The notes beneath the pieces are model-generated. The model worked only from the letters and a program-made list of their open reading frames with translations. It did no database searches and was not told where the DNA came from. Both the position numbers and the translations under genes were made by a program. Source: Galbibacter mesophilus (GTDB lineage Bacteria; Bacteroidota; Bacteroidia; Flavobacteriales; Flavobacteriaceae). From it: DNA of 64,000 nt. The stretch's first letter is position 1; each line of letters starts with the position of its first letter. Location: positions 372,001 through 436,000 of the forward strand of contig NZ_JAMQVC010000001.1 of assembly GCF_023721415.1 (NCBI RefSeq). The letters are read 5' to 3'. Of the stretch, positions 7,580 through 23,290 are shown in pieces.

Positions 7580-7772
7580 TTCCCCACAGACTCAAAAAAA
7601 ATTCCCTCATCATGTTGACCTTCCCCTCGCACCTTTCAGCATCCCCACGGCTTAAGTAACATTCCCCTCGACCCTATGACCTTCCCCTCGGAGCCTGAAG
7701 TCTTCCCCTCGACCCAATGACCTTCCCCTCAAGGTTTGCAACCTTCCCCACGAGCCAATGACCCTCCCCTCG
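7580..7772. repeat. Tandem array, about 10 units, 20/21-bp alternating period
   Basis: The core TTCCC(C)TCG or a variant begins at 7580, 7602, 7621, 7641, 7662, 7682, 7703, 7723, 7744 and 7764. After an irregular 22 and 19 the spacing alternates strictly 20, 21, 20, 21, giving a 41-bp double period. The less conserved part of each unit resembles ACCCAATGACC. The array lies in the 566-bp gap between convergent lnt and the DUF1684 gene and is bracketed by direct repeats. No believable gene lies in this gap. Confidence 0.8.
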
Positions 7773-7869
7773 CCGCGGGAATGGCTCTTTTTCATGTGGG
7801 AAATCGTTTTTGTTTGCTTCTGGGTTGAATTGTTTATCTTTTGAAGTTTGAAAATAGTAGGCAGACACT

Positions 7870-7939
7870 CAGTTGGCAGTGTTCAGTATTCAGTGAGCAG
7901 TACTCAGTGTTCACTGAGCAATAAAAACTTTGAACCTTG
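7870..7939 (+). repeat. Intergenic direct repeat, right copy
   Basis: Counterpart of the block at 7400-7456, with additional CAGT/TTCAGT units before the shared GAGCAATAAAAACTTTGAAC end. It abuts the 3' end of the DUF1684 gene. Confidence 0.75.
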
Positions 7940-7945
7940 TTCCAC

Positions 7946-8605
7946 TTACTTCGTAAACTTTTTCACCCCTACCGTTATAGGATAGTCCAAGTTGTTTTCT
8001 TTGGGAACAATCGGACAAGAAAATTTTTCGTTGTATGCGCAATAAGGATTGTAGGCTTTGTTGAAATCTAGTGCAAGGGAATCTCCTTCCGGTATACTTA
8101 AATCGATGTATCTACCGCCAGCATACGTTTCATTTCCATTGGTTTTATCTGAAAAAGGCAAAAACAAATAGTTGCGGTACTCTTCCGTATTTTTTAATTG
8201 CTGATTTTGATAAACATTCAACTGAAAATCCTTTCCATGTAATGAAAAATGAAGTATTCCATATACTTTTTCTTGAGAATTATCCCCTGTAGTTGTGGGC
8301 ATTAAAAAAGGTTGTGCATCGGGGGTGCGCTCCAATTTTGCAATAACCGAAAAAGAGGTGTCAATTGGGAAAAAATCCAATCCTTCAAATCCTAAAAAAT
8401 CTTCTTTTGTTAGAGGTGTTTTTTCAGGATGGTTGTATTCTTCGTTTATTTCCTGTTGAAATCGTTTTGCAGTTGCCACCTTACTTTCGGGAATTGATTT
8501 TGCTTCAGAAACAACCTCAACTTCATTAGCATTATGATATTTTTTACCATCGTTGCATGCAATTAATAACGGCAAACACAGAATTAACAACTTCAATTTT
8601 TTCAT
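7946..8605 (-). CDS. DUF1684 domain lipoprotein
   Basis: About 219 residues from the chosen ATG at 8605; in-frame ATGs at 8611 and 8629 are also possible. The N-terminus is a lipoprotein signal (LLILCLPLLIAC), so the protein is probably anchored in the envelope. The DUF1684 marks are clear in the last third: YAGGRYIDL, then AYNPYCAYNEKFSCPIVP and a short closing strand. This family is widespread but has no assigned biochemical role. Its conserved N-P-Y-C-A-Y and C-P cysteines are both present. It is convergent with lnt. Confidence 0.85.
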   Translation of the reverse strand: MKKLKLLILCLPLLIACNDGKKYHNANEVEVVSEAKSIPESKVATAKRFQQEINEEYNHPEKTPLTKEDFLGFEGLDFFPIDTSFSVIAKLERTPDAQPFLMPTTTGDNSQEKVYGILHFSLHGKDFQLNVYQNQQLKNTEEYRNYLFLPFSDKTNGNETYAGGRYIDLSIPEGDSLALDFNKAYNPYCAYNEKFSCPIVPKENNLDYPITVGVKKFTK

Positions 8606-8654
8606 TCCCATCAATTTTTTCAGTAACAAAAATACAACTTACGGCATTTTTAAC

Positions 8655-8812
8655 TAGCTTTGTTTGAACAAATAGAAGAAATGACATTTTTTACCACATA
8701 TACAAAGTCTAATGTAAAATCGCTGCTTCGCAGTCGGTGCTTTTGTATGTTGTAGAAAATTACAATTATAAATTTATGAAAGCCCGACGCAAAAAGAACG
8801 TCGGGCTTTTTT
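8655..8812 (+). promoter_or_regulatory. Promoter and possible attenuator leader of the MFS gene
   Basis: A TAnnTTTG -7 element (TAGCTTTG, 8655-8662) predicts transcription from about 8669; no good -33 TTG is seen. The segment at 8733-8743 (GTCGGTGCTTT) can pair with 8779-8788 (AAAGCCCGAC) over ten base pairs with one bulge. That would block the 5' arm of the terminator at 8781-8807. A small CTGC/GCAG hairpin (8723-8733) partly overlaps the pairing segment. These mutually exclusive folds suggest an attenuator. An independent small RNA of about 140 nt is the alternative. Confidence 0.4.
8781..8812 (+). terminator. Intrinsic terminator just upstream of the MFS start
   Basis: A 9-bp GC-rich stem (AGCCCGACG at 8781-8789, CGTCGGGCT at 8799-8807) followed by a T run on the plus strand. 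It ends about 32 nt before the MFS start codon, and no plus-strand gene precedes it. Confidence 0.85.
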
Positions 8813-8843
8813 ATTGAACTTTTTTAATCAACCTTTCGTCCAA

Positions 8844-10046
8844 ATGAAGAAACTATACTTTGGATATATTTCATCCTTTCAAGGCCTCTCTAAAGAGGTT
8901 TGGTGGCTTGCGCTTATCACTTTAATTAACCGTGCCGGCACCATGGTTATACCGTTTTTATCGCTTTATCTTACGCAATCTTTAAACTTCAGCTTGGCGG
9001 AAGTAGGCTGGATAATGAGCTGTTTTGGACTCGGTTCGGTGGTGGGTTCTTGGATTGGCGGAAAATTGACAGACAGGATTGGTTATTATAAAATAATGGC
9101 ATTCAGTTTACTTTCTTCTGCCCTTTTCTTTGTATTGCTGCAGTTTTTCACTTCTTTTTGGAGTCTTTGCTTAGGAATTTTCCTGGTTATGTTAGTGGCG
9201 GATATGTTTCGCCCTGCGGTGTTTGTGGCATTAAGTGCCTACAGCAAACCCGAAAATAAGACCCGTTCGGTAACGTTAATCCGCTTAGCCATTAACTTAG
9301 GCTTTTCGGCTGGACCTGCCATTGGCGGACTCATCATTACCAACATAAGTTACGACGGACTTTTTTGGGTGGACGGGATTACATGCTTCTTTGCCGGAAT
9401 ATTATTGCTAAATGTTCTCAATCCGAAAAAAGCAAGAGTTTTGGATGAAGTTAAAAATGACAATCCCACTTCTGCTTACTCCGATTTTTTGTACTGGATA
9501 TTCTTTATCGCCATGATTATCTTCGGATTTATATTCTTACAGTATTTCTCTACCGTTCCACTTTATTACAAGGAAATATTTGCCTTGACGGAAGATGAAA
9601 TTGGATTGTTATTGGCCTTTAATGGCTTGTTGGTATTTATTTTTGAAATGCCCCTCGTGCAGTATTTCGAGAAAAAGTCATGGACATCCTTATCCAGCGT
9701 TATCTTCGGATTGATTTTAACATTCCTAAGCTTTTTGGTGCTAAACATGTTCCCGTTTTTAGGAATACTTATCGTTGGAATGATTTTGATGAGCTTCGGG
9801 GAAATGTTGGTATTTCCTTTTTCCAATGCTTTTGCACTAAAACGTGCCAAACGCGGCAATCAGGGGGAGTATTTAGCATTGTACAGCATTGCCTTTTCCT
9901 TTTCCCATATTCTTGCCCATAATTCCGGTTTTCACTTAATCGACATGTTCGGTTTTGAGTTTACATGGTATTTTATGGTTGTTTTGGGTATATTGGGTTG
10001 TTTGCTTTTAATGTACTTAAAAAGAAAACTTGCTATGGAAAATTAA
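8844..10046 (+). CDS. Major facilitator superfamily transporter
   Basis: 400 residues and about twelve transmembrane segments in two halves, an inner-membrane proton-linked transporter. The MFS loop 2-3 signature is present as GKLTDRIGYYK near residue 80. The first half contains NRAGTMVIPFLSLYL, common in multidrug-efflux-like (DHA) members, so export of a small molecule is plausible. ATG 8844 is preferred over the upstream TTG at 8814, because that TTG overlaps the T run of the terminator at 8781-8812. It may be controlled by that leader. Confidence 0.82.
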   Translation: MKKLYFGYISSFQGLSKEVWWLALITLINRAGTMVIPFLSLYLTQSLNFSLAEVGWIMSCFGLGSVVGSWIGGKLTDRIGYYKIMAFSLLSSALFFVLLQFFTSFWSLCLGIFLVMLVADMFRPAVFVALSAYSKPENKTRSVTLIRLAINLGFSAGPAIGGLIITNISYDGLFWVDGITCFFAGILLLNVLNPKKARVLDEVKNDNPTSAYSDFLYWIFFIAMIIFGFIFLQYFSTVPLYYKEIFALTEDEIGLLLAFNGLLVFIFEMPLVQYFEKKSWTSLSSVIFGLILTFLSFLVLNMFPFLGILIVGMILMSFGEMLVFPFSNAFALKRAKRGNQGEYLALYSIAFSFSHILAHNSGFHLIDMFGFEFTWYFMVVLGILGCLLLMYLKRKLAMEN

Positions 10047-10124
10047 AAATATGGAGAATAGCTATTCAGTTTAATGCAAAAAATAACGGCGAGAGCCTTC
10101 AACATAAGAGATAATTATTGACTA

Positions 10125-10639
10125 ATGGTAGAAAAGGAAACACTAAACCAAAAACTTATTGATGTTAAAACTGAAATTTACGATAAACTTTCTCTCGAAA
10201 TTTCTAAAATAAATAATGAAGTTGAAGGAACCGAATATGATGCTTGCCAATTTGAGCTTAATGGGTTGAAAATTATTTCTAGAAGCTCAAAATAACACCT
10301 AAAAAAGTTGGCCAATTCGTCACATTTTGGAAACGAAATCCAAATGGAAAAACAGAGCCCTATTCTGAAAATGACCAATTTGATTTTTACGTAATTAATA
10401 TAAAATCGGAAAATCGTTTCGGACAATTTGTATTCCCGAAATCCGAATTAATTAACAAAGGTTATGTAACCTCTGAAAAAAAGGATGGGAAAAGAGGGTT
10501 TAGAGTTTACCCTATTTGGGAAAAAGTGCTAAATAAACAGGCAGCAACAACACAGAAATGGCAGTTAAATTACTTTTATGAGATTAATGAAAAAACTGAT
10601 TTGAAAGCAGTAAGAAAGTTATACAACTGCGACGTATAG
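10125..10639 (+). pseudogene. MepB family protein, frameshifted
   Basis: An ATG at 10125 opens 56 codons ending in ISRSSK then TAA at 10293. The MepB homology continues at once in the frame shifted by one base: ITPKKVGQFVTFWKRN, then DFYVINI, FGQFVFP, GFRVYP and a stop at 10637. One extra A in the AAAA run near 10289-10292 would restore a single protein of about 171 residues, the normal MepB size. MepB proteins are small and of unknown biochemical function, first noted in a staphylococcal multidrug-export operon. The gene is either a recent pseudogene or a sequence error. Its stop touches the stop of the convergent methyltransferase. Confidence 0.8.
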
Positions 10640-11383
10640 TTACATTCTTCCAATTCTATAAAATACAGGGAACTTTAAAGAATATGTTTCTTTAGTTGTA
10701 AGTTTTGCCATAAAATCATCCACGGGATTTTTCTGATTCTTTTCTTTGTATTTTTTTACGGCAGACCAACTTTTCAGGTAGCCTTCCAACTGCTTGGGTG
10801 TCCAACGTACTTTTATTTCAAAATCTTTTGAAAGGGTTTCTTCCGTAAAAGGGAAGTCTACATTTTTATATTCTTTTTCAATATAAATGCGTTCTTTATC
10901 CCAAAAATCGCCAATAACATTCTCATAAAAATGAAATAGCTTCTCGTTAAATTCATCATCCCCTTTGTGTAGTCCGTAACCAAAAATAGCCAACAATCCG
11001 CCTGGTTTTAAAATCCGTTTGACTTCCGTAAAAAAAGCTTCAAAATCAAACCAATGAAAGGCTTGCCCCACCGTAATCAAATCAAAATAGTTATCGTAAA
11101 AAGGGGTTTGTTCCGCACGCGATACTCGATAATCAATATTATCAGCAGGAATAGCATTTTTTAATTGTTCTTCACTGATATCGATTCCATAAACCTGATC
11201 AAAACTATTTTTTAAAATATTAGCTATTTGTCCGTTTCCCGTACCAACATCCAAGGCTTTTTTGGAATAATGGACTTTTTTGACCAATTCAGAAATAAAA
11301 TCTTCAGGAAAAATAGGTCTAAAAGCAGCATAGTTTTCAGCTTCCGTAGAAAAATTATCAATCATCGCTTTCATAACTCTCAT
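10640..11383 (-). CDS. Class I SAM-dependent methyltransferase
   Basis: 247 residues with the methyltransferase type-11 core. Motif I is ALDVGTGNGQIA near residue 43. An acidic end of strand 2 (VYGIDIS) follows, then SRAEQTPFYDNYFDLITVGQAFHWFD, characteristic of the UbiE/trans-aconitate-like group. The substrate is unknown; the AFHWFD box is typical of small-acid or unassigned methyltransferases. The N-terminus carries three nearby methionines (11383, 11374, 11365), so the start is uncertain. No signal peptide is seen. It shares no operon partner: the next minus-strand gene stops upstream at 11408. Confidence 0.82.
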   Translation of the reverse strand: MRVMKAMIDNFSTEAENYAAFRPIFPEDFISELVKKVHYSKKALDVGTGNGQIANILKNSFDQVYGIDISEEQLKNAIPADNIDYRVSRAEQTPFYDNYFDLITVGQAFHWFDFEAFFTEVKRILKPGGLLAIFGYGLHKGDDEFNEKLFHFYENVIGDFWDKERIYIEKEYKNVDFPFTEETLSKDFEIKVRWTPKQLEGYLKSWSAVKKYKEKNQKNPVDDFMAKLTTKETYSLKFPVFYRIGRM

Positions 11384-11407
11384 TTTTTAGATTATTAAAC
11401 ACCAAAT

Positions 11408-12790
11408 TTAGTACATCGTATCAAACCCGTAAGATTCCAACAACTCATTATATTCCGGTTGAATTCGCAATAGCGTAATTCCGTCCTGTTGCCTTAACGT
11501 TTCTATATCTTTATAACCGTTTGCCAGCATTTTATCCAAGTAAAACAGTGCCATTCCATAGTCTCCACTTTGCACTGAATATTTTAAAATAGGATAGTAC
11601 GATTCGTAATCGGTGGGGTCAACAATTGTGCTATAAATAGAAAGATACAATAAATTTTGCGTCTGCTCTGGCTCTTTGTAAGATGTTTTCATTTCACTGG
11701 GAAGTATCTTCATAAAATTGAGAATCCTTTTACCCATTCGCTTTTTAACAGCACTGGCAGAATTAATGTACTCTTTATTTATGTCCGTAACTTCCCCTTC
11801 CCAATAGGACAAAGAATTTAATTCGCCAGAAGCAACGTCCTTGGGAAAGAAATTAACATAGTCTATGTAATAATTAGGTTCCACCATGTTTACGAAAGCG
11901 TGGTCACTCCGTTGCGAGCGATAGAGTTTAGTTCGCCGAATTTCTTTTTGAAGCTCTTTCAGCGTGTCTTTTTCAAAATAAAAACGATAGTTCTCCATCA
12001 TATCGTCCAAATCGTTATAAGCTCGGTACATTTCCAGCTGCGTTCTTAAAGTTTCATTATACGCAAGGTCTTCAGCATAAAATTGAGCGATTTCTTCATC
12101 ATTCCTCGGAATAATATTTCTTGTCATGGACTGAAGGGTAAGCAAGCGTACCGCCTTATTAATAGTTTCTTTTGGAGGCCAGACATGTCCGCCGGAGAAA
12201 AACACTAACTCGGCATCAAATTTGCGTTTGGTAAGGTATTCATCGGCAAGTTTCATCTCCCGATAATTAAAATCTTCATCCCCAACAACTCCCACAAACA
12301 AGAAATTATTTTTCTTTGGAGTATACATTTCATTATTGGCGAACGAAGCACCACAGGCTATTACACCTTTCACATTTTTTGAAATCACGGCAATAGTCAC
12401 CGCCAAACGGGCACCCCCGGAAAATCCCGCGACATAAATATTATTTTCGTCTGCACTGTAAGCCTGCAAAACTTCCGCATAAAAGTTACGAGCTATATTG
12501 AGATTCTCTTGATAAGTGCTATTCTTTACGCCATTGGAAGCAGCTATGATGTAACCATATTTTTCAGAAGCTTCCTTAAACTTTTCAGTAGCCAAAGCAC
12601 CCCTCCCATTGGGATCGAAAACCAAAATTACGGGCCATTTTCTATCACTTGTATAGTCCGTTGGAAGATAAACCGAATAAGTATCCTTGGAATGCGTAAT
12701 GGAAAGTGCATCCGTTACTTTACCTAACACAGGTTTTTCTTGGCTCCAGGCAAGGGAAGTCAGAAAAAATAAAATCAACAGTTTTTTCAT
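11408..12790 (-). CDS. Secreted alpha/beta-hydrolase-like protein with C-terminal helical region
   Basis: 460 residues. A signal peptide (KKLLILFFLTSLAWSQ) indicates export. Residues about 35-230 form an alpha/beta-hydrolase (esterase/PHB-depolymerase-like) domain. It contains VILVFDPNGRG, the nucleophile elbow GFSGGAR near residue 125, and a GGHVWPP stretch that would supply the catalytic His. The remaining 220 residues are helical and charged, resembling tetratricopeptide-like repeats, and contain no second enzyme motif. Substrate unknown. It lies 24 bp upstream of the methyltransferase in transcription order, so the two may be cotranscribed. Confidence 0.75.
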   Translation of the reverse strand: MKKLLILFFLTSLAWSQEKPVLGKVTDALSITHSKDTYSVYLPTDYTSDRKWPVILVFDPNGRGALATEKFKEASEKYGYIIAASNGVKNSTYQENLNIARNFYAEVLQAYSADENNIYVAGFSGGARLAVTIAVISKNVKGVIACGASFANNEMYTPKKNNFLFVGVVGDEDFNYREMKLADEYLTKRKFDAELVFFSGGHVWPPKETINKAVRLLTLQSMTRNIIPRNDEEIAQFYAEDLAYNETLRTQLEMYRAYNDLDDMMENYRFYFEKDTLKELQKEIRRTKLYRSQRSDHAFVNMVEPNYYIDYVNFFPKDVASGELNSLSYWEGEVTDINKEYINSASAVKKRMGKRILNFMKILPSEMKTSYKEPEQTQNLLYLSIYSTIVDPTDYESYYPILKYSVQSGDYGMALFYLDKMLANGYKDIETLRQQDGITLLRIQPEYNELLESYGFDTMY

Positions 12791-13032
12791 AAAAGCTTAT
12801 CAAACGTAAATTCAGCAAAAAAGTTGCCATTAAATTTATTCATAAAAATACACATCTATTAAACTTAGAGGAATTTTTATTTATATCAGTCACCCTATTG
12901 CACTACCTCAAACTTTAAATTTAGCCCAATTAAATGTTAAGATATTCTTTATTGAGTATCCTTTAACACCTTATTTCCCGTAAAATATGGATATTTAAGT
13001 AGAATCAAATCAGTAATTTAAAAATATCAACT

Positions 13033-13434
13033 ATGAAAATCCAAGCATATTTAGCATTTAAAAATCAATGTGAAGAAGCACTCAATTATTATAAAAACAT
13101 ATTTGGTGGCGAAGTAATTAACAAACAGACTTACGAGGACAAGAAAATCGACATTCCTGAAAGTTATAGACACAATCTACAACATGCCGAATTGAAAGGA
13201 AAAGGCTTTCACTTTATGGCCTACGACGCAGCGCCAGACACGCCTATAACTTCTGGTTCTAATTTGTACATGAGTATCGATGCAGACTCCAAAGACGAAG
13301 CTGCCGAGATTTTTAAAAAACTGAGTAGCGGAGGAAGTGTTCATCAACCGTTTGAAAAATCCAGTTGGGGAGATTATTACGGAAGATGTACCGACAAATA
13401 CAATATTCAATGGATGGTAAATGCAAAAGAATAA
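13033..13434 (+). CDS. VOC family (PhnB/glyoxalase-like) protein
   Basis: 133 residues of the vicinal-oxygen-chelate fold, PhnB-like subgroup. It begins MKIQAYLAFKNQCEEALNYY, the usual opening of this group, continues with HAELKGKGFHFMAYDA, and ends with SSWGDYYGRCTDKYNIQWM. Despite the historical name these are not demethylases, and most members have no known reaction. The protein is cytoplasmic and apparently monocistronic, with its own terminator. It is divergent from the hydrolase gene; the 242-bp gap between them holds no recognisable motif. Confidence 0.88.
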   Translation: MKIQAYLAFKNQCEEALNYYKNIFGGEVINKQTYEDKKIDIPESYRHNLQHAELKGKGFHFMAYDAAPDTPITSGSNLYMSIDADSKDEAAEIFKKLSSGGSVHQPFEKSSWGDYYGRCTDKYNIQWMVNAKE

Positions 13435-13459
13435 GTTAACCATTCTTATTAAAGAAACT

Positions 13460-13487
13460 AAAATCAGCTTTCGAGCTGATTTTTTTT
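13460..13487 (+). terminator. Intrinsic terminator of the VOC gene
   Basis: A 10-bp stem AAAATCAGCT/AGCTGATTTT with a TTCG tetraloop, followed by a T run. Confidence 0.9.
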
Positions 13488-13619
13488 ATTCCGATTTCAC
13501 CTACAAAACTGTTAAAAAAACTTTTCAATTCTCTAAAATGACATCCATTTCTTTATTTTTCGAAATAAAATTGAATATTTTTAAAGCCGTTTAGAAAATT
13601 AACTAACTAATAAAAAACA

Positions 13620-14585
13620 ATGAAACGTAGACAATTTGTAAACACCACTGCCAAATCCAGCCTTGCTTTAACCTTTTTAGGAGCTATGGCTTGTAAAGAA
13701 CAAAGTAAGAAAGAAACTTCTGAAGTTGTTGAAGAGGCCATTAAGAAAGACGAAGCTTTATTTTTTCAAATCTCTTTGGCACAGTGGTCGTTACACCGAG
13801 CCTTAAAATCTGGAGAAATGGATAATTTAGAATTTGCTGCCAAAGCAAAATCATTAGGATGTGAAGGCTTGGAATATGTAAATCAATTCTTTGGAGATAA
13901 AGCAAAAGATACCGCTTACTTGAACCAAATGAATGACAGAGCAAAATCTGAGGGTGTTGAAAACGTGCTTATCATGATCGACGGGGAAGGACAATTGGCT
14001 GATGCAGAAGCTAAAAAAAGACTGGAAGCAGTAGAAAATCATTACAAATGGGTGGAAGCTGCCAATTATTTAGGCTGTCATTCTATCCGTGTAAATATAG
14101 GTGGCGGAAAAGAAATGGAAGAGGCTGCCAAAGCAGGAATAGACTCTTTACAAAAACTGTCTGAATTTGCGGCTCAGGAAAATATAAATGTAATTGTAGA
14201 AAACCACGGCGGATTTTCCTCGAACGCATCTTGGGTGGCCGGGATAATGGAAAAAGTTGACATGGAAAATTGCGGTACCTTACCCGATTTTGGTAATTTC
14301 TGTATTGAACGAGGAAAAGACAGCTGTGCGGAAGAATACGATCGTTACAAAGGCGTTAAAGAATTGCTACCTTACGCCAAAGCTATTAGTGCTAAATCTC
14401 ACGATTTTAATGCTGAAGGAAATGAAACCCATACCGATTTTCTAAAAATGATGAAAATGGTAAAAGACAGCGGCTACAAAGGTTTTGTTGGTATCGAATA
14501 CGAAGGTGGTAATTTATCTGAAGAAAAAGGGATCATTGCAACCCGTGATTTATTGATTAAAGTTGGGAAACAACTATCTGCCTAA
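13620..14585 (+). CDS. Tat-exported sugar phosphate isomerase/epimerase (xylose-isomerase-like TIM barrel)
   Basis: 321 residues. The N-terminus MKRRQFVNTTAKSSLAL is a twin-arginine signal and ends in MAC, a possible lipobox, so the protein is exported and perhaps lipid-anchored. The body is an AP-endonuclease-2/xylose-isomerase barrel: AQWSLHRAL near residue 60, VIVENHGG near 195 and TLPDFGNFC near 220 supply metal ligands (Glu, His, Asp). A late glutamate lies in FVGIEYEGG. Such exported Bacteroidota members act on sugars or inositols together with Gfo/Idh/MocA enzymes. The substrate here is unknown. Confidence 0.85.
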   Translation: MKRRQFVNTTAKSSLALTFLGAMACKEQSKKETSEVVEEAIKKDEALFFQISLAQWSLHRALKSGEMDNLEFAAKAKSLGCEGLEYVNQFFGDKAKDTAYLNQMNDRAKSEGVENVLIMIDGEGQLADAEAKKRLEAVENHYKWVEAANYLGCHSIRVNIGGGKEMEEAAKAGIDSLQKLSEFAAQENINVIVENHGGFSSNASWVAGIMEKVDMENCGTLPDFGNFCIERGKDSCAEEYDRYKGVKELLPYAKAISAKSHDFNAEGNETHTDFLKMMKMVKDSGYKGFVGIEYEGGNLSEEKGIIATRDLLIKVGKQLSA

Positions 14586-14607
14586 ATCATAAAAGAATAT
14601 ATTGAAG

Positions 14608-14643
14608 GCCCAAAATGCAAAATGTTGTTTTGGGCTTTCTTTA
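14608..14643 (+). terminator. Intrinsic terminator after the epimerase gene
   Basis: Stem GCCCAAAA (14608-14615) with TTTTGGGC (14628-14635), then a T-rich tract. It lies between convergent genes. Confidence 0.85.
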
Positions 14644-14666
14644 TTTTATTTTCTACCGGAAGACAC

Positions 14667-15044
14667 TCATTCTTTAACGATTTCTCCGCCACTTTCTTCC
14701 CATTCGTCAAAACCTCCCCGCAAGTCAACCAAATCTTTAAATCCTAAAGAGTCAAGAATTTTAGACGCTTTAGCGCTACGTCCACCAGCTTTGCAATAAA
14801 CATACACCTTTTTATCCCTGGTAAGTTTGCTTACTTTTTCAGCAAAATCTTCAGATTTATAATCAATATTCTGGGCGTTTTTCAAATGGCCGCTAGAAAA
14901 CTCCTCTGGTGTTCGAACATCGATTAAAATCGATTCTGAAGTATCCTTCAATTTAAAATCAGAAATATTCATTTCATTAACTTGAGCCGTAAGTTGCTGA
15001 ACTGAAATTATTAATAGGAAATATATTATATATTTTATTTTCAT
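14667..15044 (-). CDS. Secreted single-domain rhodanese-like protein
   Basis: 125 residues from the ATG at 15044. That start is preferred because it gives a normal signal peptide (MKIKYIIYFLLIISVQQLTAQ), while a longer upstream reading lacks sense. One rhodanese domain follows. LIDVRTPEEFSSGHLKNAQNID is the entry motif, and VYVYCKAGGRSAKA holds the active-site loop with cysteine (CKAGGRS). These domains carry persulfide sulfur; periplasmic single-domain forms are common in Flavobacteriaceae but their acceptor is unknown. It is divergent from the sigma-factor gene. Confidence 0.9.
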   Translation of the reverse strand: MKIKYIIYFLLIISVQQLTAQVNEMNISDFKLKDTSESILIDVRTPEEFSSGHLKNAQNIDYKSEDFAEKVSKLTRDKKVYVYCKAGGRSAKASKILDSLGFKDLVDLRGGFDEWEESGGEIVKE

Positions 15045-15114
15045 GCCTTTGGTGTAAAAAAAAGTTATACCGCAAAGTACAGAATAACAAACGTGTTTTT
15101 TAAACTTTTTGTTA

Positions 15115-15122
15115 TACTTTTG
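15115..15122 (+). promoter_or_regulatory. TAnnTTTG promoter element of the sigma-factor gene
   Basis: TACTTTTG matches the Bacteroidota -7 consensus. It lies inside the longest reading frame of the sigma gene, which argues that translation starts downstream at the GTG at 15141. Confidence 0.5.
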
Positions 15123-15140
15123 AAAGAAAATTACAACTTC

Positions 15141-15701
15141 GTGGCCAAAAACCAACTTAATCCCTCCAAATGGGTAGATCTCTATGCAGACTACCTTTTT
15201 AACTATACCATCTCTCGGGTAAACGATACCATTGTTGCAGAAGATTTGGTACAGGAAACCTTTTTGGCTGGGTTAAAATCGGCTAAAAACTTTAAAGGAG
15301 AAGCCGCAGAACGTACTTGGTTGATTTCTATATTGAAAAGAAAAATTATTGATCATTATCGGAAAATTAATTCGAAAAAAGGAAAAGCCGAAGTTAAAAT
15401 GGGCTATTCTAATCGAAATGAAGAGGAAGGCGATTGGCTGGAAGACCGAGTAGCAGACCCCTTTGATATGAATGCCGAAGATGTGCTTCAAAACGAAGAG
15501 TTGGGTGTGGCCATTCAAGAATGTTTAATGAAATTGCCTAAAAAACAGGCCGATGTTTTTATAAAAAAAACGATTGAAGGAATGGAAACCGAAGATATTT
15601 GTAAAGAATTAAATATCTCCGCGTCTAATTTATGGGTAATTATCCATCGAGCAAGAACTGCGTTAATGGATTGTTTGGAAAATAATTGGTTTAAAAAATG
15701 A
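15141..15701 (+). CDS. Sigma-70 family (ECF-type) RNA polymerase sigma factor
   Basis: About 186 residues from a GTG at 15141 (reading VAKNQLNPSKWVDLYADYL). An earlier in-frame GTG at 15093 lies upstream of the putative promoter. Region 2 is seen in YADYLFNYTISRV and DLVQETFLAG, region 2.4 in ERTWLISILKRKIIDHYRK. Region 4 follows a linker in LPKKQADVFIKKTIEGMETEDIC with helix-turn-helix ISASNLWVIIHRAR. These are group-4 sigma factors that redirect RNA polymerase. The target is not shown by sequence. The stop overlaps the next start (ATGA), so the pair is translationally coupled. Confidence 0.9.
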   Translation: MAKNQLNPSKWVDLYADYLFNYTISRVNDTIVAEDLVQETFLAGLKSAKNFKGEAAERTWLISILKRKIIDHYRKINSKKGKAEVKMGYSNRNEEEGDWLEDRVADPFDMNAEDVLQNEELGVAIQECLMKLPKKQADVFIKKTIEGMETEDICKELNISASNLWVIIHRARTALMDCLENNWFKK

Positions 15702-15952
15702 GTACAAAAAAAAGCACTTTCTTTATCTCTTGCGAAGAGGCCAAGCATATTTGTGATAAAGTTCAATATGGCGAAGCCAGTATTTGGGAACGATTAAAAC
15801 TAAATCTTCGTCTTCTATGGTGTCGAGCAACAAAATCTTACACGAAACGTAACGGGACACTCACCAAACTTTGTAACGAAGCTCAAATTAAAACCCTCAA
15901 TGAAGAGAAGAAAAATGAAATGAAAAAACGTCTTGAATCGCAAGAAGTTTAA
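15698..15952 (+). CDS. Small cysteine-containing protein coupled to the sigma factor
   Basis: 84 residues, hydrophilic, with no membrane segment. It begins MSTKKSTFFISCEEAKHICDK and has four cysteines (SCEEAKHIC, LWCRATKSY, KLCNEA). The position, overlapping the sigma gene by four bases, is where cytoplasmic zinc-binding anti-sigma factors are usually found. The cysteine pattern only partly resembles the H-x3-C-x2-C zinc motif: a threonine stands where the second cysteine would be. A role as anti-sigma or sigma co-regulator is inference. Its stop overlaps the stop of the convergent UbiA-like gene. Confidence 0.75.
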   Translation: MSTKKSTFFISCEEAKHICDKVQYGEASIWERLKLNLRLLWCRATKSYTKRNGTLTKLCNEAQIKTLNEEKKNEMKKRLESQEV

Positions 15953-16764
15953 ATAGCCCACAACAGCAGCCACCAAATCACAGAAATACTCTCCACGAAA
16001 AATCTTGAAAAATAGCTGGATTGTTCTTTTTTAGCAAAAACTACTGCTAAAACCAACAAGCCACTAATGATCGATTCGACCACTAAATTATCCATTCCGA
16101 AGAAATGGCTTTTAACTATTGCAATAATCAAGAATAAAATAGTTAACACCCCTCCAAAAACCTTAACTCCTTTCTCCCCAAGCACCTGCGGAAGTGTTCG
16201 CAACCAAGGTTCATCCGCTTTTAAATCCCTGATTTCAAAAGGTATCATTAAAATAATAATGAACAAAAAGCGCTGTAAAAACTCTAGAAATCCAATCCAT
16301 TCTATTTTTGAATCGCTATTCAGTAATGGCAAAATTACGGTAGAAACAGACCAAGTTATTGCAACAATATAAATTTTCACCCCCTTTAGACTTCTAAAAT
16401 TTTGTTTTGAAGAAATAGCGGGGACTACATACAAAAAGGCCAAAAGGACCAACACAGAAGCGATTATAACTGTAATAGCCTGTAATTGAAACACAAAATA
16501 CAGCGCTACTAAAAAGCAAATTGCACTAAATAACTGTATGGATCGAATGTACTTTTGCGTTACAAAAATATAATGTTTTGCAAGCGGACTGTATTTTATA
16601 AAACTGTACTCCACAATAGTTCCAAAAAACAAAGCATAACTCAACGCATCATCAAATGGCAATCCTAAATTGTAAAAGGTAACCTGTGCCAACGCAAAAA
16701 CGCTCAAACCCACATGAATACTAGTATCCAAATAAAAATCAAAAATGCGTTTAAGTAGCTTCAT
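15949..16764 (-). CDS. UbiA-like integral membrane protein
   Basis: 271 residues with about eight hydrophobic helices. The second aspartate motif of UbiA prenyltransferases is recognisable as PFEIRDLKAD near residue 178 (D-x3-D). The first one, N-D-x2-D-x3-D, is not: its expected position in the N-terminal third reads VEYSFIKYSPLAKHY. The family normally moves an isoprenyl chain onto an aromatic acceptor in the membrane. With half of the magnesium-diphosphate site missing, this protein may be inactive or do something else. It is monocistronic and convergent with the sigma pair. Confidence 0.65.
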   Translation of the reverse strand: MKLLKRIFDFYLDTSIHVGLSVFALAQVTFYNLGLPFDDALSYALFFGTIVEYSFIKYSPLAKHYIFVTQKYIRSIQLFSAICFLVALYFVFQLQAITVIIASVLVLLAFLYVVPAISSKQNFRSLKGVKIYIVAITWSVSTVILPLLNSDSKIEWIGFLEFLQRFLFIIILMIPFEIRDLKADEPWLRTLPQVLGEKGVKVFGGVLTILFLIIAIVKSHFFGMDNLVVESIISGLLVLAVVFAKKEQSSYFSRFFVESISVIWWLLLWAI

Positions 16765-16863
16765 TTCAATAAAATAGACAGCAAAATGTTAATTCTGTTA
16801 TTGGGTGTTCAAAACTTTAGTTAAAGCCATTTTAAAAGTACTTTTTTTAACCATAATTATGTG

Positions 16864-16871
16864 TACTTTTG
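16864..16871 (+). promoter_or_regulatory. gcvP promoter -7 element
   Basis: TACTTTTG matches TAnnTTTG. The -33 position is T-rich but lacks a clear TTTG. Transcription from about 16878 would give a leader of about 120 nt. Confidence 0.6.
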
Positions 16872-16883
16872 CGCAAAATCAAC

Positions 16884-16974
16884 TACCTGAAAGTTAATTT
16901 TCTAGGTATACAAAGGAAAACAAATTAATTCTTTTCGGCCAATAAAACCGAAGGAACAAGCCCTCCCAGAGGGC
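16884..16974 (+). promoter_or_regulatory. Structured 5' leader of gcvP, three hairpins
   Basis: Three successive hairpins: TACCTGAAA/TTTTCTAGGTA (16884-16908), TTCGG/CCGAA (16934-16952) and GCCCTC/GAGGGC with a CCA loop (16960-16974). The string CCGAAGGAACAAG followed by GGGCAAAA resembles conserved parts of the glycine aptamer. The 5' GGAGAG strand and its CUCUC partner are missing, so I do not call a canonical glycine riboswitch. Control of a glycine-cleavage gene makes a related RNA plausible. Confidence 0.4.
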
Positions 16975-16997
16975 AAAACATTTTTTAGACGGTTATA

Positions 16998-19847
16998 ATG
17001 AAAACAGATTCTTTTATTTCCCGCCATATCGGCCCACAAGAAGATGATTTAGGCACCATGTTTTCTACAGTTGGTGTTAAAAATATGGACGAGCTACTCT
17101 ACGAAACCTTTCCAGATGGCATCCGATTGAAATCGGATTTAGACCTTCCGGAGGCAATGACAGAGCATGAGTACTTAGGCCATTTAAAACAACTGGCGGC
17201 CAAAAACAGTGTTTACAAAACCTATATTGGTCTTGGTTACCACGAGTCTATTACGCCTTCAGTAATCAAAAGGAATATTTTAGAAAATCCAGGATGGTAC
17301 ACTGCATACACTCCTTACCAAGCGGAAATCGCTCAAGGAAGATTGGAAGCTTTGTTAAACTTCCAAACCATGATTTGCGATCTCACTGGGATGGAATTGG
17401 CCAATGCGTCTTTATTAGATGAAGGTTCTGCTGCTGCAGAGGCGATGTCTATGCTTTTCGGTGCAAGAAGTAGGGAGCAAAAGAAAAATAATATCAATAA
17501 GTTTTTTGTTTCAGATGAAGTTTTACCGCAGACTTTATCGGTATTAAAATCGCACGCTGCTCCGTTAGAAATTGAATTGGTTGTAGGCAACCATACTTCT
17601 TTTGATTTTTCAAAGGAATTCTTTGGTGCTTTCCTTCAATACCCAGGAAAATACGGTGCTGTTTACAATTATGGCGAATTCGTTTCCGAAGCCAATAAAA
17701 ATGACATTAAAGTTGCTTTTGCAGCCGATATTTTAAGTTTGGTAAACCTTACTCCTCCTGGAGAATTAGGAGCAGAAGTAGTAGTTGGAACTACACAACG
17801 CTTTGGAATTCCGTTAGGATATGGTGGCCCACACGCAGCATATTTCGCTACAAAAGAAGCTTATAAAAGAAACATCCCTGGAAGAATTATTGGAGTTACA
17901 AAAGATATGGACGGAAACCGTGCATTGCGAATGGCGCTCCAAACTAGGGAACAACATATAAAAAGAGATAAAGCTACTTCTAACATTTGTACAGCTCAAG
18001 TTTTATTGGCGGTTATGGCTGGAATGTATGCTGTTTATCACGGCCCAAAAGGTTTAAAATACATCGCCGATAAGGTTCATAATTCTGCTATTGCGCTTTC
18101 CAAAGCGCTTTCTGAATTAGGTTATGAGCAACTAAACGAGTCGTATTTCGATACTATTTTGGTTAAAGCCGATGCACAAAATGTTAGACATATTGCGGAA
18201 TTGGAAAATGTAAACTTTCTATATGTGGATGGCGATAAAGTGGCAATCTCTTTAAATGAAGCCACTACGCTTAAAGACCTCAACAAAATTGTACAGATTT
18301 TTGCTGACGCCGCTGGAAAAAACACAGTTACCATTGATAAGTTAATGGAAAATACAGCTGTACTAAACGGTACCGCACGTGTATCTCCATTTTTAGAGAA
18401 TGAAGTTTTTAACTCTTTCCACTCTGAAACCGCTTTAATGCGTTACATCAAAAAATTAGAGCGTAAAGATTTGGCGTTAAACCATTCTATGATTTCTTTA
18501 GGGTCTTGTACCATGAAGCTAAATGCTGCTTCGGAAATGCTACCTTTAAGTTGGGATGAATGGGGAAATATTCACCCGTTTGTACCCGTAGAGCAAGCCC
18601 AAGGTTACCAAGAAGTGTTGAAAACGCTTGAAGAACAACTTAACGTAATCACTGGTTTTGCCGGAACTTCTCTTCAGCCAAATTCAGGTGCACAGGGAGA
18701 ATATGCAGGACTAATGGTAATTCGTGCGTATCACGAATCCCGTAATGAATCTCATCGAAACATTTGTTTGATACCTGCTTCCGCTCACGGAACCAATCCA
18801 GCTTCTGCAGTATTGGCTGGAATGAAAGTGGTGGTTACAAAAACCGACGACAAAGGGAATATCGATGTTGAAGATCTACGCGAAAAAGCAGAAAAGCACA
18901 AAGAAGATTTGGCTGCTTTAATGGTTACTTATCCTTCAACACACGGGGTTTTTGAATCTTCCATTAAAGAAATTACCCAAATTATTCATGATAACGGCGG
19001 ACAAGTTTATATGGACGGTGCAAACATGAATGCTCAGGTAGGACTTACAAATCCGGCAACTATTGGAGCCGACGTTTGTCACTTGAATCTTCATAAAACA
19101 TTTGCCATCCCGCATGGTGGTGGAGGCCCTGGTGTTGGCCCTATTTGTGTAGCCGCACATTTGGTTCAGTTCTTACCTTCCAATCCTGTTATAAAAACCG
19201 GTGGAGAAAATGCTATCGATGCGATTTCAGCAGCGCCATGGGGAAGCTCATTGGTTTGTTTGATTTCCTACGGATACATTAAAATGCTTGGTGCTAAAGG
19301 CTTGAAACAAGTTACAAGCACAGCAATTTTAAACGCAAACTATATTAAAAGCAGATTGAGCGGTTCTTTTGATGTATTGTATACAGGAGAAAAAGGAAGA
19401 GCTGCCCACGAAATGATAATCGATTGTCGCCCATTTAAAGCAAAAGGTATTGAGGTTACCGATATTGCCAAAAGACTTATCGACTACGGATTCCATGCGC
19501 CTACGGTTTCTTTCCCAGTGGCAGGAACAATGATGATTGAGCCTACGGAAAGTGAAAACCTAGCAGAGTTAGACCGTTTTTGTGATGCTTTAATTGCCAT
19601 AACAAAAGAAATTGAAGAATTGGAAGAAGGCGATACAAATAATGTTTTGAAAAATGCGCCTCATACGTTAAAAATGTTGACGTCTTCCAACTGGGATTTT
19701 CCTTATTCAAGGGAAAAAGCGGCATTTCCTATGGATTATATTGCCGATAATAAGTTTTGGCCTACCGTAAGACGTGTTGATGAAGCCTATGGAGATCGTA
19801 ATTTAATGTGTACCTGCGCTCCTATTGAAGATTATATAGAAGCTTAG
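16998..19847 (+). CDS. gcvP: Glycine dehydrogenase (decarboxylating), P protein
   Basis: 949 residues, the full fused form in which both halves of the P protein lie in one chain. It decarboxylates glycine with PLP and passes the aminomethyl group to lipoyl-GcvH in the glycine cleavage system. The N-terminus SFISRHIGP is family-typical. The PLP lysine is K700 in [34 protein letters not shown] follows. GcvT and GcvH are not nearby, which is usual for Bacteroidota. A structured leader precedes it and an intrinsic terminator follows. Confidence 0.98.
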
Positions 19848-19872
19848 AAAAACCACAAATAATCAGTATATA

Positions 19873-19914
19873 AAGGCTCTGTTGGAATTTTGAAAATTCA
19901 ACAGAGCCTTTTCT
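19873..19914 (+). terminator. Intrinsic terminator of gcvP
   Basis: Stem AAGGCTCTGTTG (19873-19884) with CAACAGAGCCTT (19899-19910), then TTCTTT. Confidence 0.9.
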
Positions 19915-20004
19915 TTATCCATCTTCATGCTTTTATAAGTCATAAAAACAATACTGGACATCGTAAAAAAAACTATGCACGCATAATATTTAAGGAAGTT
20001 ACTG

Positions 20005-20012
20005 TACCTTTG
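20005..20012 (+). promoter_or_regulatory. Promoter -7 element of the KAS III operon
   Basis: TACCTTTG matches TAnnTTTG and lies 17 bp before the start codon, implying a very short leader. No clear -33 element. Confidence 0.55.
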
Positions 20013-20028
20013 ATCAAATTCAAGCTAA

Positions 20029-21087
20029 ATGAACATAAAAATCACTGGTACGGGGTCTTATATTCCTTCAGAAATTACTGGGAACCAATCCTTTTTAAAA
20101 AATGTATTCCTAAATGCTGATGGAAGCACTTTTGATACCACCAACGAAATCATAATTGAAAAGTTCAAAGCCATTACTGGAATTGAAAATAGAAGGTATG
20201 TAAAAGATGAATACACTACTTCTGATATTGCTTTCTTAGCTGCTGAAAAAGCAATTGAGGATGCTGGCATTGATAAAGAGACATTGGATTACATAATTGT
20301 TGCCCATAACTTCGGTGATGTAGAAAAAGGTTCTACCCAAACGGATTGTGTCCCCAGCATTGCTTCCCGTGTAAAAAATGCACTGCAAATTAAAAATCCA
20401 GCATGTGTAGGCTATGATGTTTTGTTTGGTTGCCCTGGTTGGCTAGAGGGTGTTGTACAAGCGAACGCATTTATTAAAGCTGGCATAGCTAAAAAATGTT
20501 TGGTTATTGGGGCAGAAACCCTTTCCAGAGTAGTGGATAACAACGACCGTGATTCTATGATTTATGCTGACGGAGCTGGCGCTACGATTATTGAAGCGAC
20601 AAGTGAAGAAGGCGGATTGTTAGCGCATCAATCAGCTACCTACGCAGCAGAGGAAGCTCATTATCTTTTCATGGGTAAATCGTACGATAAGGACCAACTA
20701 GATAATACTAAGTACATCAAAATGTACGGTAGGAAAATTTATGAATTTGCCGTTACCCATGTACCCAATGCTATGAAAGAATGTTTGGACAGAAGCGGGG
20801 TTGCAATAGAAGACGTAAAAAAAGTGTTTATCCACCAAGCCAACGAAAAAATGGATGAAGCCATCCTTAAACGTTTCTTCAGACTTTATAAAATGTCTGT
20901 TCCAAACGGAATTATGCCTATGAACATTCACGAAATGGGAAATAGTTCCGTAGCAACCATCCCTACTCTATTCGATTCAGTAAGAAAAGGATTCATAAAA
21001 AATCAAGAAGTAAATAAAGGAGATGTTGTTATATTTGCAAGTGTAGGCGCAGGAATGAATATCAACGCGCTCGTTTATAAAATATAA
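20029..21087 (+). CDS. 3-oxoacyl-ACP synthase III-like (FabH family) protein
   Basis: 352 residues of the thiolase fold. The KAS III triad is complete: C135 in LFGCPGW, H269 in FIHQAN, N305 in MGNSSVAT. KAS III enzymes condense an acyl-CoA with malonyl-ACP to start a fatty-acid or polyketide-like chain. The protein begins at once with ITGTGSYIPSEITGN, also typical. It is followed after one base by a methyltransferase and then a glycosyltransferase, so it may start a specialised lipid and not be housekeeping fabH. That role is inferred from the operon. Confidence 0.85.
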   Translation: MNIKITGTGSYIPSEITGNQSFLKNVFLNADGSTFDTTNEIIIEKFKAITGIENRRYVKDEYTTSDIAFLAAEKAIEDAGIDKETLDYIIVAHNFGDVEKGSTQTDCVPSIASRVKNALQIKNPACVGYDVLFGCPGWLEGVVQANAFIKAGIAKKCLVIGAETLSRVVDNNDRDSMIYADGAGATIIEATSEEGGLLAHQSATYAAEEAHYLFMGKSYDKDQLDNTKYIKMYGRKIYEFAVTHVPNAMKECLDRSGVAIEDVKKVFIHQANEKMDEAILKRFFRLYKMSVPNGIMPMNIHEMGNSSVATIPTLFDSVRKGFIKNQEVNKGDVVIFASVGAGMNINALVYKI

Positions 21088-21088
21088 T

Positions 21089-21616
21089 ATGTACGAAAAT
21101 AGCTTCCCTAACAAACGCTATAAAAAGACCATAGAATTCTTAGAATCATCCGTTCCCAAACCCACTTCTATTCTTGATTTAGGGGTAGAAAATCCTTTCA
21201 GTAAAATTATGCAGGAACGTGGATATCAAGTTGAAAACACAAAAGGGGAAGATCTCGATATTGATTTTTCAACAGTTATTAATTCTGATGCGGAAGTGGT
21301 AACCGCTTTTGAAATTTTTGAACATCTATTGGCGCCTTTCAACGTTTTAAGGGAAATAAAATCTGATAAACTGATAGCCTCCATCCCTCTACGTTTGTGG
21401 TTTTCCCCTGCTTACCGCAGTAAAACGGATAAATGGGATCAACATTACCATGAATTTGAAGATTGGCAATTTGATTGGCTTCTGGAAAAAGCAGGTTGGG
21501 AAATAAAAAAACGCGACAAATGGACAAACCCTGTTAAAAAAATAGGCATAAGGCCTCTTCTTCGCAGTTTTACCCCTCGTTATTATATTGTGTATGCTGA
21601 AAGAAAAAAGCAATAA
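21089..21616 (+). CDS. Small class I methyltransferase-like protein
   Basis: 175 residues. A short SAM-binding signature is seen in ILDLGVENPFSK near residue 29, then GEDLDIDF (end of strand 2) and VVTAFEIFEHLLAP, the post-I region typical of type-11 methyltransferases. The protein is shorter than most (about 240), lacking the last part of the fold. It starts one base after the KAS III stop, and its TAA shares an A with the next ATG, so translation of all three is coupled. Substrate unknown; a lipid or glycolipid intermediate is a guess. Confidence 0.72.
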   Translation: MYENSFPNKRYKKTIEFLESSVPKPTSILDLGVENPFSKIMQERGYQVENTKGEDLDIDFSTVINSDAEVVTAFEIFEHLLAPFNVLREIKSDKLIASIPLRLWFSPAYRSKTDKWDQHYHEFEDWQFDWLLEKAGWEIKKRDKWTNPVKKIGIRPLLRSFTPRYYIVYAERKKQ

Positions 21617-22467
21617 TGGACTATTATGTAGTTATACCTGCGCATAACGAAGAAGATTTCATCAATCTTTGTTTGGAGAGTTTAGTCTTGCAAACGCTAC
21701 TTCCCAAAAAAGTGATTGTGGTGAATGATAATTCTACAGATGGTACCGAAGCCATCATTGATGCTTTTGCCAACGAATATGGCTTTATTGAAAAATATAA
21801 CACCCAATCCTCTACCGAACATATGCCAGGGAGCAAGGTGGTAAATGCTTTTAACAAAGGACTCGCCCTACTTGACGATAAATACGATTTTATAGTAAAA
21901 TTAGACGCAGATCTTATTCTTCCTGTAGAATATTTTGAAACTATCGCCCAAACTTTTGGTAAAAATAAAGCCGTTGGTATCGCTGGAGGTTTTGTTTATG
22001 AAACAAATGAAAATGGTGATTGGGAACGTAATCACCCCATGAATAACGATCACGTGCGCGGTGCTTTTAAAGCTTATTCCAGAGACTGTTTCAACGCCAT
22101 AGGCGGATTAAAACCAGCCATGGGCTGGGACACCGTGGACGAATTGTTGGCAAAATACCACGGATATGAAATATCTACAAACGACAATCTTCAGGTAAAA
22201 CACCTCCGCCCCACTGGGAAATCCTACAATAAAAAAGCAAAACTTCTTCAAGGAGAAGCCATGTACGGCATGCGGTATGGTTTTTTTATAACCTGCATTG
22301 CTTCTTTAAAAATGGCTTTAAAATATAAGAAGTCTTCTATTTTTAATGATAATATGACTGGTTATTTTAATGCCAAAAAGAAAAGCAACCCTTTTATTGT
22401 TACTGAAGAAGAAGGAAGTTTTATAAGGGCTTATCGCTGGAAAAATATCAGGCAAAAGCTTTTTTAG
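21616..22467 (+). CDS. Glycosyltransferase family 2 (GT-A fold)
   Basis: 283 residues. The GT2 entry YYVVIPAHNEEDFI stands at the N-terminus. VVNDNSTDGT (nucleotide-sugar site) comes near residue 36, KLDADLILP (DxD metal site) near residue 95, and GGLKPAMGWDTVDELL near residue 158. There is no evident transmembrane anchor. GT2 enzymes transfer a sugar from a nucleotide donor to a lipid, polysaccharide or protein acceptor. As last gene of the KAS III operon it probably decorates the lipid made there. A 21-bp repeat array follows. Confidence 0.88.
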   Translation: MDYYVVIPAHNEEDFINLCLESLVLQTLLPKKVIVVNDNSTDGTEAIIDAFANEYGFIEKYNTQSSTEHMPGSKVVNAFNKGLALLDDKYDFIVKLDADLILPVEYFETIAQTFGKNKAVGIAGGFVYETNENGDWERNHPMNNDHVRGAFKAYSRDCFNAIGGLKPAMGWDTVDELLAKYHGYEISTNDNLQVKHLRPTGKSYNKKAKLLQGEAMYGMRYGFFITCIASLKMALKYKKSSIFNDNMTGYFNAKKKSNPFIVTEEEGSFIRAYRWKNIRQKLF

Positions 22468-22481
22468 AGAGGTATATACAG

Positions 22482-22745
22482 TTCCCCCGTGAGAATATAC
22501 TTTTCCCTGACAGGAATATAGAGTTCCCTTGTTAAAATATACTTTTCCATGACAAGAATATACAGTTCCCTCGTTAAAATATAGTTTGCCATGACAAGAA
22601 TATATAGTTCCCTCATTAAAATATAAATTTCCCTGACAAGATTATATAGTTCCCTCGTTAAAATATAGTTTTCCCTGACGAGAATATACAGTTCCTTCAT
22701 TAAAATATACTTTTCCCTGACAGGGATATACAGTTCTATCATGAA
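22482..22745. repeat. Tandem array, 13 units of exactly 21 bp
   Basis: The core TTCCC (or close variant) begins at 22482 and then every 21 bases to 22734, thirteen times without a single insertion or deletion. Two unit types alternate: GTTCCCTCGTTAAAATATA and TTTCCCTGACAAGAATATA, so the higher period is 42 bp. Units differ by substitutions only. It lies between the convergent glycosyltransferase and DoxX genes. The minus strand stays open through it as a heptad-like peptide, but that frame begins inside a terminator. Confidence 0.9.
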
Positions 22746-22747
22746 AA

Positions 22748-23289: not shown

Positions 23290-23290
23290 A

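Follow-up and report, generated by a model that had tools for sequence, protein, structure and literature searches.

Non-coding tandem arrays of Galbibacter mesophilus mostly share a two-turn pitch rather than a sequence: candidate platforms for rows of DNA-bound protein

Two short tandem arrays in the genome of Galbibacter mesophilus raise the question of what such spacer repeats have in common and what keeps them regular. Both lie in a stretch of 64,000 nucleotides, referred to here as the window (C1:372001-436000 of genome G000, 3.77 Mb in 8 contigs). A sequence-only reading of this window had linked them through a shared TTCCC(C)TCG core, a double period of 41-42 bp and a position between tail-to-tail genes, as members of a family of phased elements. 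The two arrays are indeed present, with double periods of 41 and 42 bp, and each is placed between convergent open reading frames (ORFs) of ordinary genes. What is common to most arrays of this genome is a pitch of two helical turns (20.5-21.5 bp, with double units of 41, 42 or 43 bp) and not a sequence. The elements concerned in the window are the following.

7580..7772 (+): array 1, family A; ten cores of the TTCCC type, pitch alternating between 20 and 21 bp, 41-bp double unit, non-coding.
7773..7810 (+): tail of family A beyond array 1; two inverted GGGAA cores with a spacing of 21 bp (7777-7781, 7798-7802).
22474..22746 (+): array 2, family B; exact 21-bp register over 13 units, with a 42-bp alternation (ATATACAGTTCCCTCGTTAAA / ATATACTTTTCCCTGACAAGA), non-coding.

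The 20/21 alternation of array 1 appears when its cores (7580-7769) are read in the CCC register, and every other unit of array 2 is TTCCCTGA or a variant of it. The exact TTCCC(C)TCG core proved a poor common denominator, with four copies in array 1 (7621, 7662, 7682, 7703) and only two in array 2 (22566, 22650). The genome-wide pattern search that had been suggested was run as three TTCCC spaced 19-24 bp apart and recovered many further copies: 48 matches in the whole genome (25 + 23), compared with one (0 + 1) for the reversed pattern. These matches correspond to two sequence families and one 12-bp repeat at C5:82460. Sequence-only profiles built for the families, R1 for B and R2 for A, place the two window arrays in different families rather than in one, and the count of two unlinked arrays was too low, since the genome holds six A and seven B loci besides arrays of the same pitch and other sequence.

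Family A was found at C1:53436, C1:206725, C1:379580, C1:838788, C3:160781 and C3:176743 (R2 was trained on five of these; C1:206725 was outside the training set). Unit order is common to the copies, as is the end, CCCTCCCCTCGCCGCGGGAA or a near variant. All six carry an inverted GGGAA, followed about 21 bp further on by a second GGAA in four and by GGGA in a fifth; the right end with its inverted cores is thus common to the copies, and the left end is not. Given the common unit order and end, family A has the look of a dispersed element that is internally periodic, and not of a satellite only.

Family B was found at C1:394474, C1:920993-921557, C1:1272243-1272685, C2:10011-10289, C2:640355-641106, C4:248907-249085 and C5:54656-55142 (R1 was trained on five of the seven, C2:10011 and C4 being outside the training set, and matches of E-value 5e-4 and weaker were left out of the count). 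Its seven arrays comprise 140 units, and when these were read at 21-bp steps the motif stayed in register across 133 of 133 joints. Unit types run from TTCCC (ATATACAGTTCCCTCGCAAGA) to GCAA (ATATAAAGTGCAATCGCTAGA), often blockwise inside one array. The array at C2:10011-10289 is of the GCAA type, with TTCCC in none of its 14 units; TTCCC was therefore rejected as the defining feature, as family B holds its pitch without it. Substitutions are abundant, amounting to 320 changes on within-array minimum spanning trees (a count that omits the last unit of C2:640k) or 248 on one tree for all units, and they are unevenly distributed over the columns (chi-square p 1e-19). Columns 1-5, 9, 11 and 21 hold a single base in 93-100% of the 140 units; columns 6, 8, 10, 13, 15, 17 and 18 are the most variable. 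Dispersed repeats of the same genome, used as a control, gave 213 gap openings versus 1980 mismatches (104 overlapping, non-independent alignments), a rate at which 27-34 indels would be expected in family B; none was counted.

The same pitch recurs in arrays unrelated to A and B in sequence. A census was performed on 40 stretches (800 kb) of the same genome, originally chosen for the measurement of GC skew, using Tandem Repeats Finder and a self-similarity scan, with non-coding status assigned by a crude rule. It yielded 11 non-coding arrays, with periods of 21 (five arrays), 42 (two), 43 (one), 11, 33 and 39 bp, the arrays of period 33 and 39 being judged Ala/Glu-rich coding repeats. Two-turn periods are thus seen in 8 of the 11, spread over five sequence groups, and shuffling of the census stretches in 60-bp blocks left zero arrays. 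A second count of the same stretches gave seven loci with period 21 and one each with 16, 33 and 43, and a count from Tandem Repeats Finder that also took in coding and heptamer repeats gave 12/29. For background, the two-turn share was 5/33 in 695 kb of other bacterial contigs, which had been selected by the TTCCC pattern and had the neighbourhood of the pattern masked, and 2/8 in 908 kb of viral contigs (Fisher p versus 5/33: 8e-4 for the full set of 11 rows, 9e-5 after two are dropped). The arrays of other sequence are listed below.

L404, L413 and L421: TTTAGGT/ACCTAAA group with inverted half-sites, same pitch.
L416 and L419: AGTCGTGCAAAG group, same pitch.
L433, and the short L408: further arrays of the same pitch.
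L434: 43 bp, GATACGT/ACGTATC, inverted half-sites.

Seven other arrays, read in fixed register, add 68 joints and 251 changes. Some pitches are not multiples of three, namely 41 bp in family A and 43 bp in L434 and in L449, an array of another genome (G005). The inverted half-sites TTTAGGT/ACCTAAA and GATACGT/ACGTATC look like protein sites.

Taken together, these results suggest that spacing is kept more than sequence. An exact pitch combined with a free sequence points to helical phasing; the unequal constraint on columns inside a family suggests a protein that reads the sequence, and so do the inverted half-sites of two other groups. Because these signs coincide, and because RNA folding, coding and curvature found no consistent support (see below), we favour, tentatively and at somewhat less than even chance, the view that the arrays are minisatellites serving as one-faced candidate platforms for protein binding, with their pitch kept by selection. 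Each unit would be the putative site of a DNA-binding protein, so that adjacent molecules share one helical face and bind in a cooperative manner; each family would have a protein, or a variant site, of its own. Such a row of protein in spacer DNA could act as a local anchor, a roadblock or a supercoil sink. Array copies would reach new loci and lengthen through the exchange of entire units. A bolder version, in which the lineage builds sequence-independent phased scaffolds, the replication-oriented spacer arrays carrying putative one-faced protein filaments for nucleoid organisation or polymerase block, seems doubtful to us.

Several observations weigh against the platform view. The stretches in which the excess of period 21 was first noticed are also those in which it was counted. 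The independent samples closest to them gave two-turn periods in two of the four non-coding arrays of G005 (540 kb; a 43-bp and a 21-bp array beside periods 15 and 28), in 0/2 of G006 (140 kb), in 0/1 of G002 (100 kb) and in 0/1 of G020 (120 kb), the periods in these last three being 14, 14, 11 and 24. The absence of indels in family B is partly conditioned, because the search for arrays is biased towards regular ones and a step of 21 bp was imposed in cutting out the units. The B units exclude a 3-bp shift at the L050 edge, one duplicated unit of C2:640k allows a paired 20/22 shift as an alternative reading, and a diverged array in G002 has one 22-bp joint. Finally, family A was found in none of the other genomes of the family Flavobacteriaceae searched and family B only sporadically, which fits drifting satellites as well as function.

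The position of the arrays among genes was examined with long ORFs as gene calls, without annotation. The neighbours of the two window arrays are listed here.

5793..7379 (+): apolipoprotein N-acyltransferase (LNT_N, CN_hydrolase), left of array 1; ORF and Pfam.
7946..8629 (-): DUF1684 protein, right of array 1; ORF and Pfam.
21616..22467 (+): family 2 glycosyltransferase, left of array 2; its stop codon ends 6 bp ahead of the array.
22464..22772 (-): ORF of 102 codons through array 2, judged not to be a gene, as it matches no family, family B lacks a codon-position signal and G426 has another frame open.
22741..22776 (-): intrinsic terminator-like hairpin with a 12-bp stem, belonging to the right-hand gene and located on the margin of array 2; predicted fold.
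22843..23340 (-): DoxX-like protein, right of array 2; ORF and Pfam.

All 13 A and B arrays are intergenic, that is, between long ORFs once array-crossing frames are set aside. Seven lie between convergent, five between co-directional and one (L048, between DUF3302 and S9 peptidase genes) between divergent genes. In 120 comparison gaps of at least 250 bp without A or B arrays, a few of which contain arrays of other sequence, the corresponding numbers were 24, 70 and 26, so that convergent gaps are over-represented (7/13 versus 24/120, Fisher p 0.012). Among the other arrays, L433 is convergent, L404, L408, L413, L416, L419 and L434 are co-directional (1/7 convergent) and L421 was unscorable, which brings all scored arrays to 8/20 convergent (Fisher p 0.08). 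A distribution without regard to gene orientation is only weakly rejected. The earlier picture of phased elements stands as regards the many further copies and their preference for convergent gaps; the common recognised core is not supported, nor is a role tied to converging transcription, as 6 of the 13 A and B arrays are not convergent and only one of the seven scored others is. The safest statement is that 19 of the 20 arrays scored are downstream of one or both neighbouring genes. In 6 of 19 arrays, a gene is separated from the array by its terminator-like hairpin. Pfam matched 22 of the 27 neighbours of the 13 A and B arrays, none of them a type III toxin, and left five unmatched; most are ordinary, unrelated genes.

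Two features were seen beside the longest B array. One is an HTH_3 regulator gene adjoining it (L052 6675-7034); no such regulator occurs among the other 21 Pfam-matched neighbours. The other is a protein of about 240 residues (L052 4947-5675, C2), a relative of which lies beside the array of another genome, G033 (L057 4767-5471). The two proteins share 28% identity over 173 residues, and neither has a Pfam or NCBIfam match; relatives were absent from the loci, viral contigs and plasmids searched. This may be a partner gene, or a chance association.

Replication polarity was assessed from third-position GC skew, plus skew being taken as the leading strand. On C1 the skew turns from minus to plus at about 1.03-1.08 Mb, apart from discordant stretches at 650 and 915 kb; on C2 it turns from plus to minus between about 0.72 and 0.78 Mb; on C3, where dnaA is at 138257, it is plus in every stretch sampled (60, 155, 171, 180 and 320 kb). 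In 12 of the 13 A and B arrays the G-rich strand falls on the presumed leading strand (B 7/7; A 5/6, the exception being C3:176743; two-sided p 0.003). Control repeat families of at least four copies split 6:5, 9:0, 4:1, 4:1 and 4:0, a transfer-RNA family (4:1) being set aside. Polarity as a property specific to the arrays was therefore rejected; with one control family at 9:0 and another at 6:5, it belongs to some dispersed repeats of this genome and is no proof of polar function. A polarity of single sites similar to that of FtsK-orienting polar sequences (KOPS) was likewise rejected, as GAGGGAA (50 leading, 27 lagging) and CGAGGGAA (8/7) match the general G-rich skew. In other species, three of four scored arrays agree in polarity and that of G002 fails (local, weak skews; the score leaves out the G005 and G559 arrays), and in G033 two neighbouring stretches are opposite in skew sign. 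A dispersed intergenic repeat (GCTCCGAAA..CAGGAGCGTAGGCACGGAGCGACGCGGAG..), present at window 28624-28831 (-) and in eight places besides, was replication-oriented in 9/9 sampled.

Relatives were then sought in other genomes. A strict TTCCCT pattern had no match in any of six genomes of the same genus; among 119 genomes including its own it matched in five, of which, besides its own, only G033 was B-like by eye. With stricter filters, R1 matched in four of 397 genomes of the family, its own included, and R2 in none of the 396 others. R1 gave weak matches (E 1e-4, 2e-4) to the diverged 21-bp array of G002, a member of the same genus. A wider model, R3, was built with this array and one array of G426, and is in effect a 21-bp-periodic AT-rich model; it was searched against two overlapping draws of 397 and 395 genomes. 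The only arrays new to the model that it recovered were the second one of G426 and those of G559, a genome outside the family. About 15-16 of 21 positions match between family B and the G426 and G559 arrays (manual count), so that homology is suggestive, given that some periodic AT-rich matches are expected by chance. R3 also gave nine single weak matches (E 5e-5 to 8e-4) in nine other genomes of the family, with G389 recurring; it missed G033, whose core is one base off register, and did not repeat the R1 match in G437. In G005, the 43-bp array (L449) carries the L434 motif between convergent genes, and the 21-bp array (L484) resembles family B by eye. No good counterpart was found between the genes beside the G002 and G426 arrays and those beside the arrays of G000 (one 23% match and array-frame matches). 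Collection scans for TTCCCT at 21 bp were unspecific, many of the matches listed being coding or heptamer repeats, and BLAST of one B, one A and one phage-like array against plasmids gave no match.

Other 21-bp arrays were noted during these searches. In G559 (L445 C54, L446 C25), arrays of the GTATAAAGTAAAGTTGCTAGA type occur three times among short ORFs with common neighbouring sequence, in a cassette-like manner. Three phage-like contigs (L294, L256, L300) carry 21-bp TTCCCTG repeats followed by inverted TTCCCTG..CAGGGAA near terminase or ParB-methylase genes, which is taken as an analogy only. A 7.8-kb contig (L214) contains 21- and 42-bp arrays of different sequence between ORFs (~3108-3300, 5022-5315), the pattern also seen in this genome.

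Could the arrays be read as protein, act as RNA or simply bend? That they encode heptad-repeat proteins, 21 bp being seven codons, is very improbable. A frame is indeed open through several arrays, and the coding reading is least excluded for L419 and L416, in which apparently the same frame is open with low apparent nonsynonymous-to-synonymous (N/S) ratios (0.36 and 0.34; small counts). Against it stand the units of 41 and 43 bp and the even spread of changes in family B over codon positions (93/111/116), with an N/S of about 0.62 in the open frame, hardly below the 0.64 and 0.67 of the stop-filled frames. The frame open in a G426 array also differs from that open in family B and array 2, and no Pfam match above cut-off was obtained for four array-crossing ORFs. 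Even less credit is given to a function as RNA (a structured transcript, or the repeat RNA of a type III toxin-antitoxin system) or as intrinsically curved DNA. Repeat RNA antitoxins exist, and on its plus strand array 2 gives a better fold than shuffles (z -3.56); this fold, however, includes the adjacent terminator hairpin, and the minus strand without the hairpin reached only z -1.52. For one A copy, the fold of either strand is poorer than that of shuffles, 1 of 16 predicted RNA pairs is compensatory, and no gathering-level Rfam match was found at the 13 A and B arrays, L404, L416, L419 or L433 (L408, L413, L421 and L434 were omitted from the scan). Predicted curvature exceeds the 95th percentile of column-permuted arrays in 3/13 and is unremarkable in 10/13.

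Neutral minisatellites, arisen by tandem duplication and slippage or unequal exchange, with an inherited pitch and a cross-family coincidence due to mutational preference or chance, are unlikely on balance, yet this is the alternative that we take most seriously. The species-restricted, sporadic occurrence fits it, as do a 231-bp block duplicated within C2:640360-641036, the 42-bp alternation typical of whole-unit exchange and the small G006, G002 and G020 samples, with no excess of the period. It is confronted with the missing indels and the uneven column constraint of family B, and no mutational process that would prefer 21 bp is known to us. Rather less likely still are mobile or domesticated-transposase repeats of the type of miniature inverted-repeat transposable elements (MITEs) or repetitive extragenic palindromes (REPs), with an enzyme acting on the single-stranded lagging-strand template. 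IS200/IS605-type transposases are described as acting on the lagging strand (PMC6006769), which we count in favour of this explanation; it would also account for the leading-strand bias of the arrays and of the 9/9 dispersed family, and is most plausible for family A with its unit order, end and tail of inverted cores. In the arrays of family B inspected by eye, in contrast, no shared ends were seen, neither terminal inverted repeats nor target duplications were established, and one control family is split 6:5 in its polarity. A transposase origin is compatible with protein-binding platforms. As for the initial proposal, one protein insulating converging transcription on the TTCCC(C)TCG core, it is now improbable in spite of the convergent excess and of TTCCC in both window arrays: the GCAA-type array dispenses with TTCCC, 6 of the 13 A and B arrays are not convergent, one of these being divergent, only 8 of 20 are convergent once the other arrays are added, and isolated TTCCCTC[GA] sites, away from the arrays, favour neither strand (17 vs 15).

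A literature search gave no description of 21-bp-pitched non-coding arrays in Flavobacteriaceae among the matches listed, subscription journals being mostly outside its reach. The best functional analogy would be with REPs and bacterial interspersed mosaic elements (BIMEs), and the nearest described element appears to be BrickBuilt; the arrays fit neither definition in full. REPs and BIMEs are extragenic, regularly spaced and dispersed, with several families per genome; REP units are palindromic, alternate in orientation within BIMEs and bind gyrase and integration host factor. They share with our arrays these traits of position, spacing and number of families, and offer a model for protein-bound repeats acting on supercoiling. 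Their units are folding palindromes, whereas A and B consist of direct repeats that fold little; the TTTAGGT group is nearer to them. Iterons and plasmid centromere repeats are direct repeats with spacing of about two turns, bound cooperatively on one face, beside rep or par genes; the two-turn direct repeats are alike, but the 13 A and B loci lie beside mostly ordinary genes. BrickBuilt, a minisatellite-MITE of Porphyromonas gingivalis, has, as far as its description goes, 23-nt head-to-tail units, always intergenic, in 19 copies in one strain, and forms a single sequence family with a leader, a tail and terminal inverted repeats like ISPg1/ISPg9 (PMC4596501). It resembles A and B in its units of about two helical turns and its multicopy, intergenic nature, probably in the same phylum. 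It differs in unit length (23 nt versus 21 bp in B or alternating 20/21 in A) and in being one family, as opposed to several unrelated ones here, of which B shows no common ends by eye. Borg genomes are reported to carry many independent families of spacer tandem repeats, including 20- and 21-nt units, perfect and recent, with 14-38% of intergenic unit lengths divisible by three (PMC9879509). The multiplicity of spacer families in one genome is as here, whereas our arrays are diverged and concentrated at 21. Intergenic tandem repeats are also described as variable-number units of 4-9 bp in Flavobacterium psychrophilum (PMC4501049) and as 7-bp TAACTGA heptamers in Bacteroidetes (PMC4679880), both shorter than 21 bp.

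Bacterial minisatellites are usually taken as neutral typing markers. If most non-coding arrays of a genome were phased and avoided indels, selection on spacing would become separable from selection on sequence. The arrays would then offer many natural replicates for finding the bound proteins, and a test of pitch rather than motif could be used on any genome.

Some minor features were recorded around the arrays. Imperfect CAGT-rich repeats lie on either side of array 1 (7400-7440, 7862-7920), with similar pieces in other spacers. A Flavo-1 RNA, just over the cut-off (L053 9913-10056), lies about 4.4 kb from a family A array, and a SAM-II riboswitch (L110 289-348) about 4.9 kb from another. 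Elsewhere in the window, an S4-Flavobacteria ribosomal protein leader is present at 46987-47018 (-).

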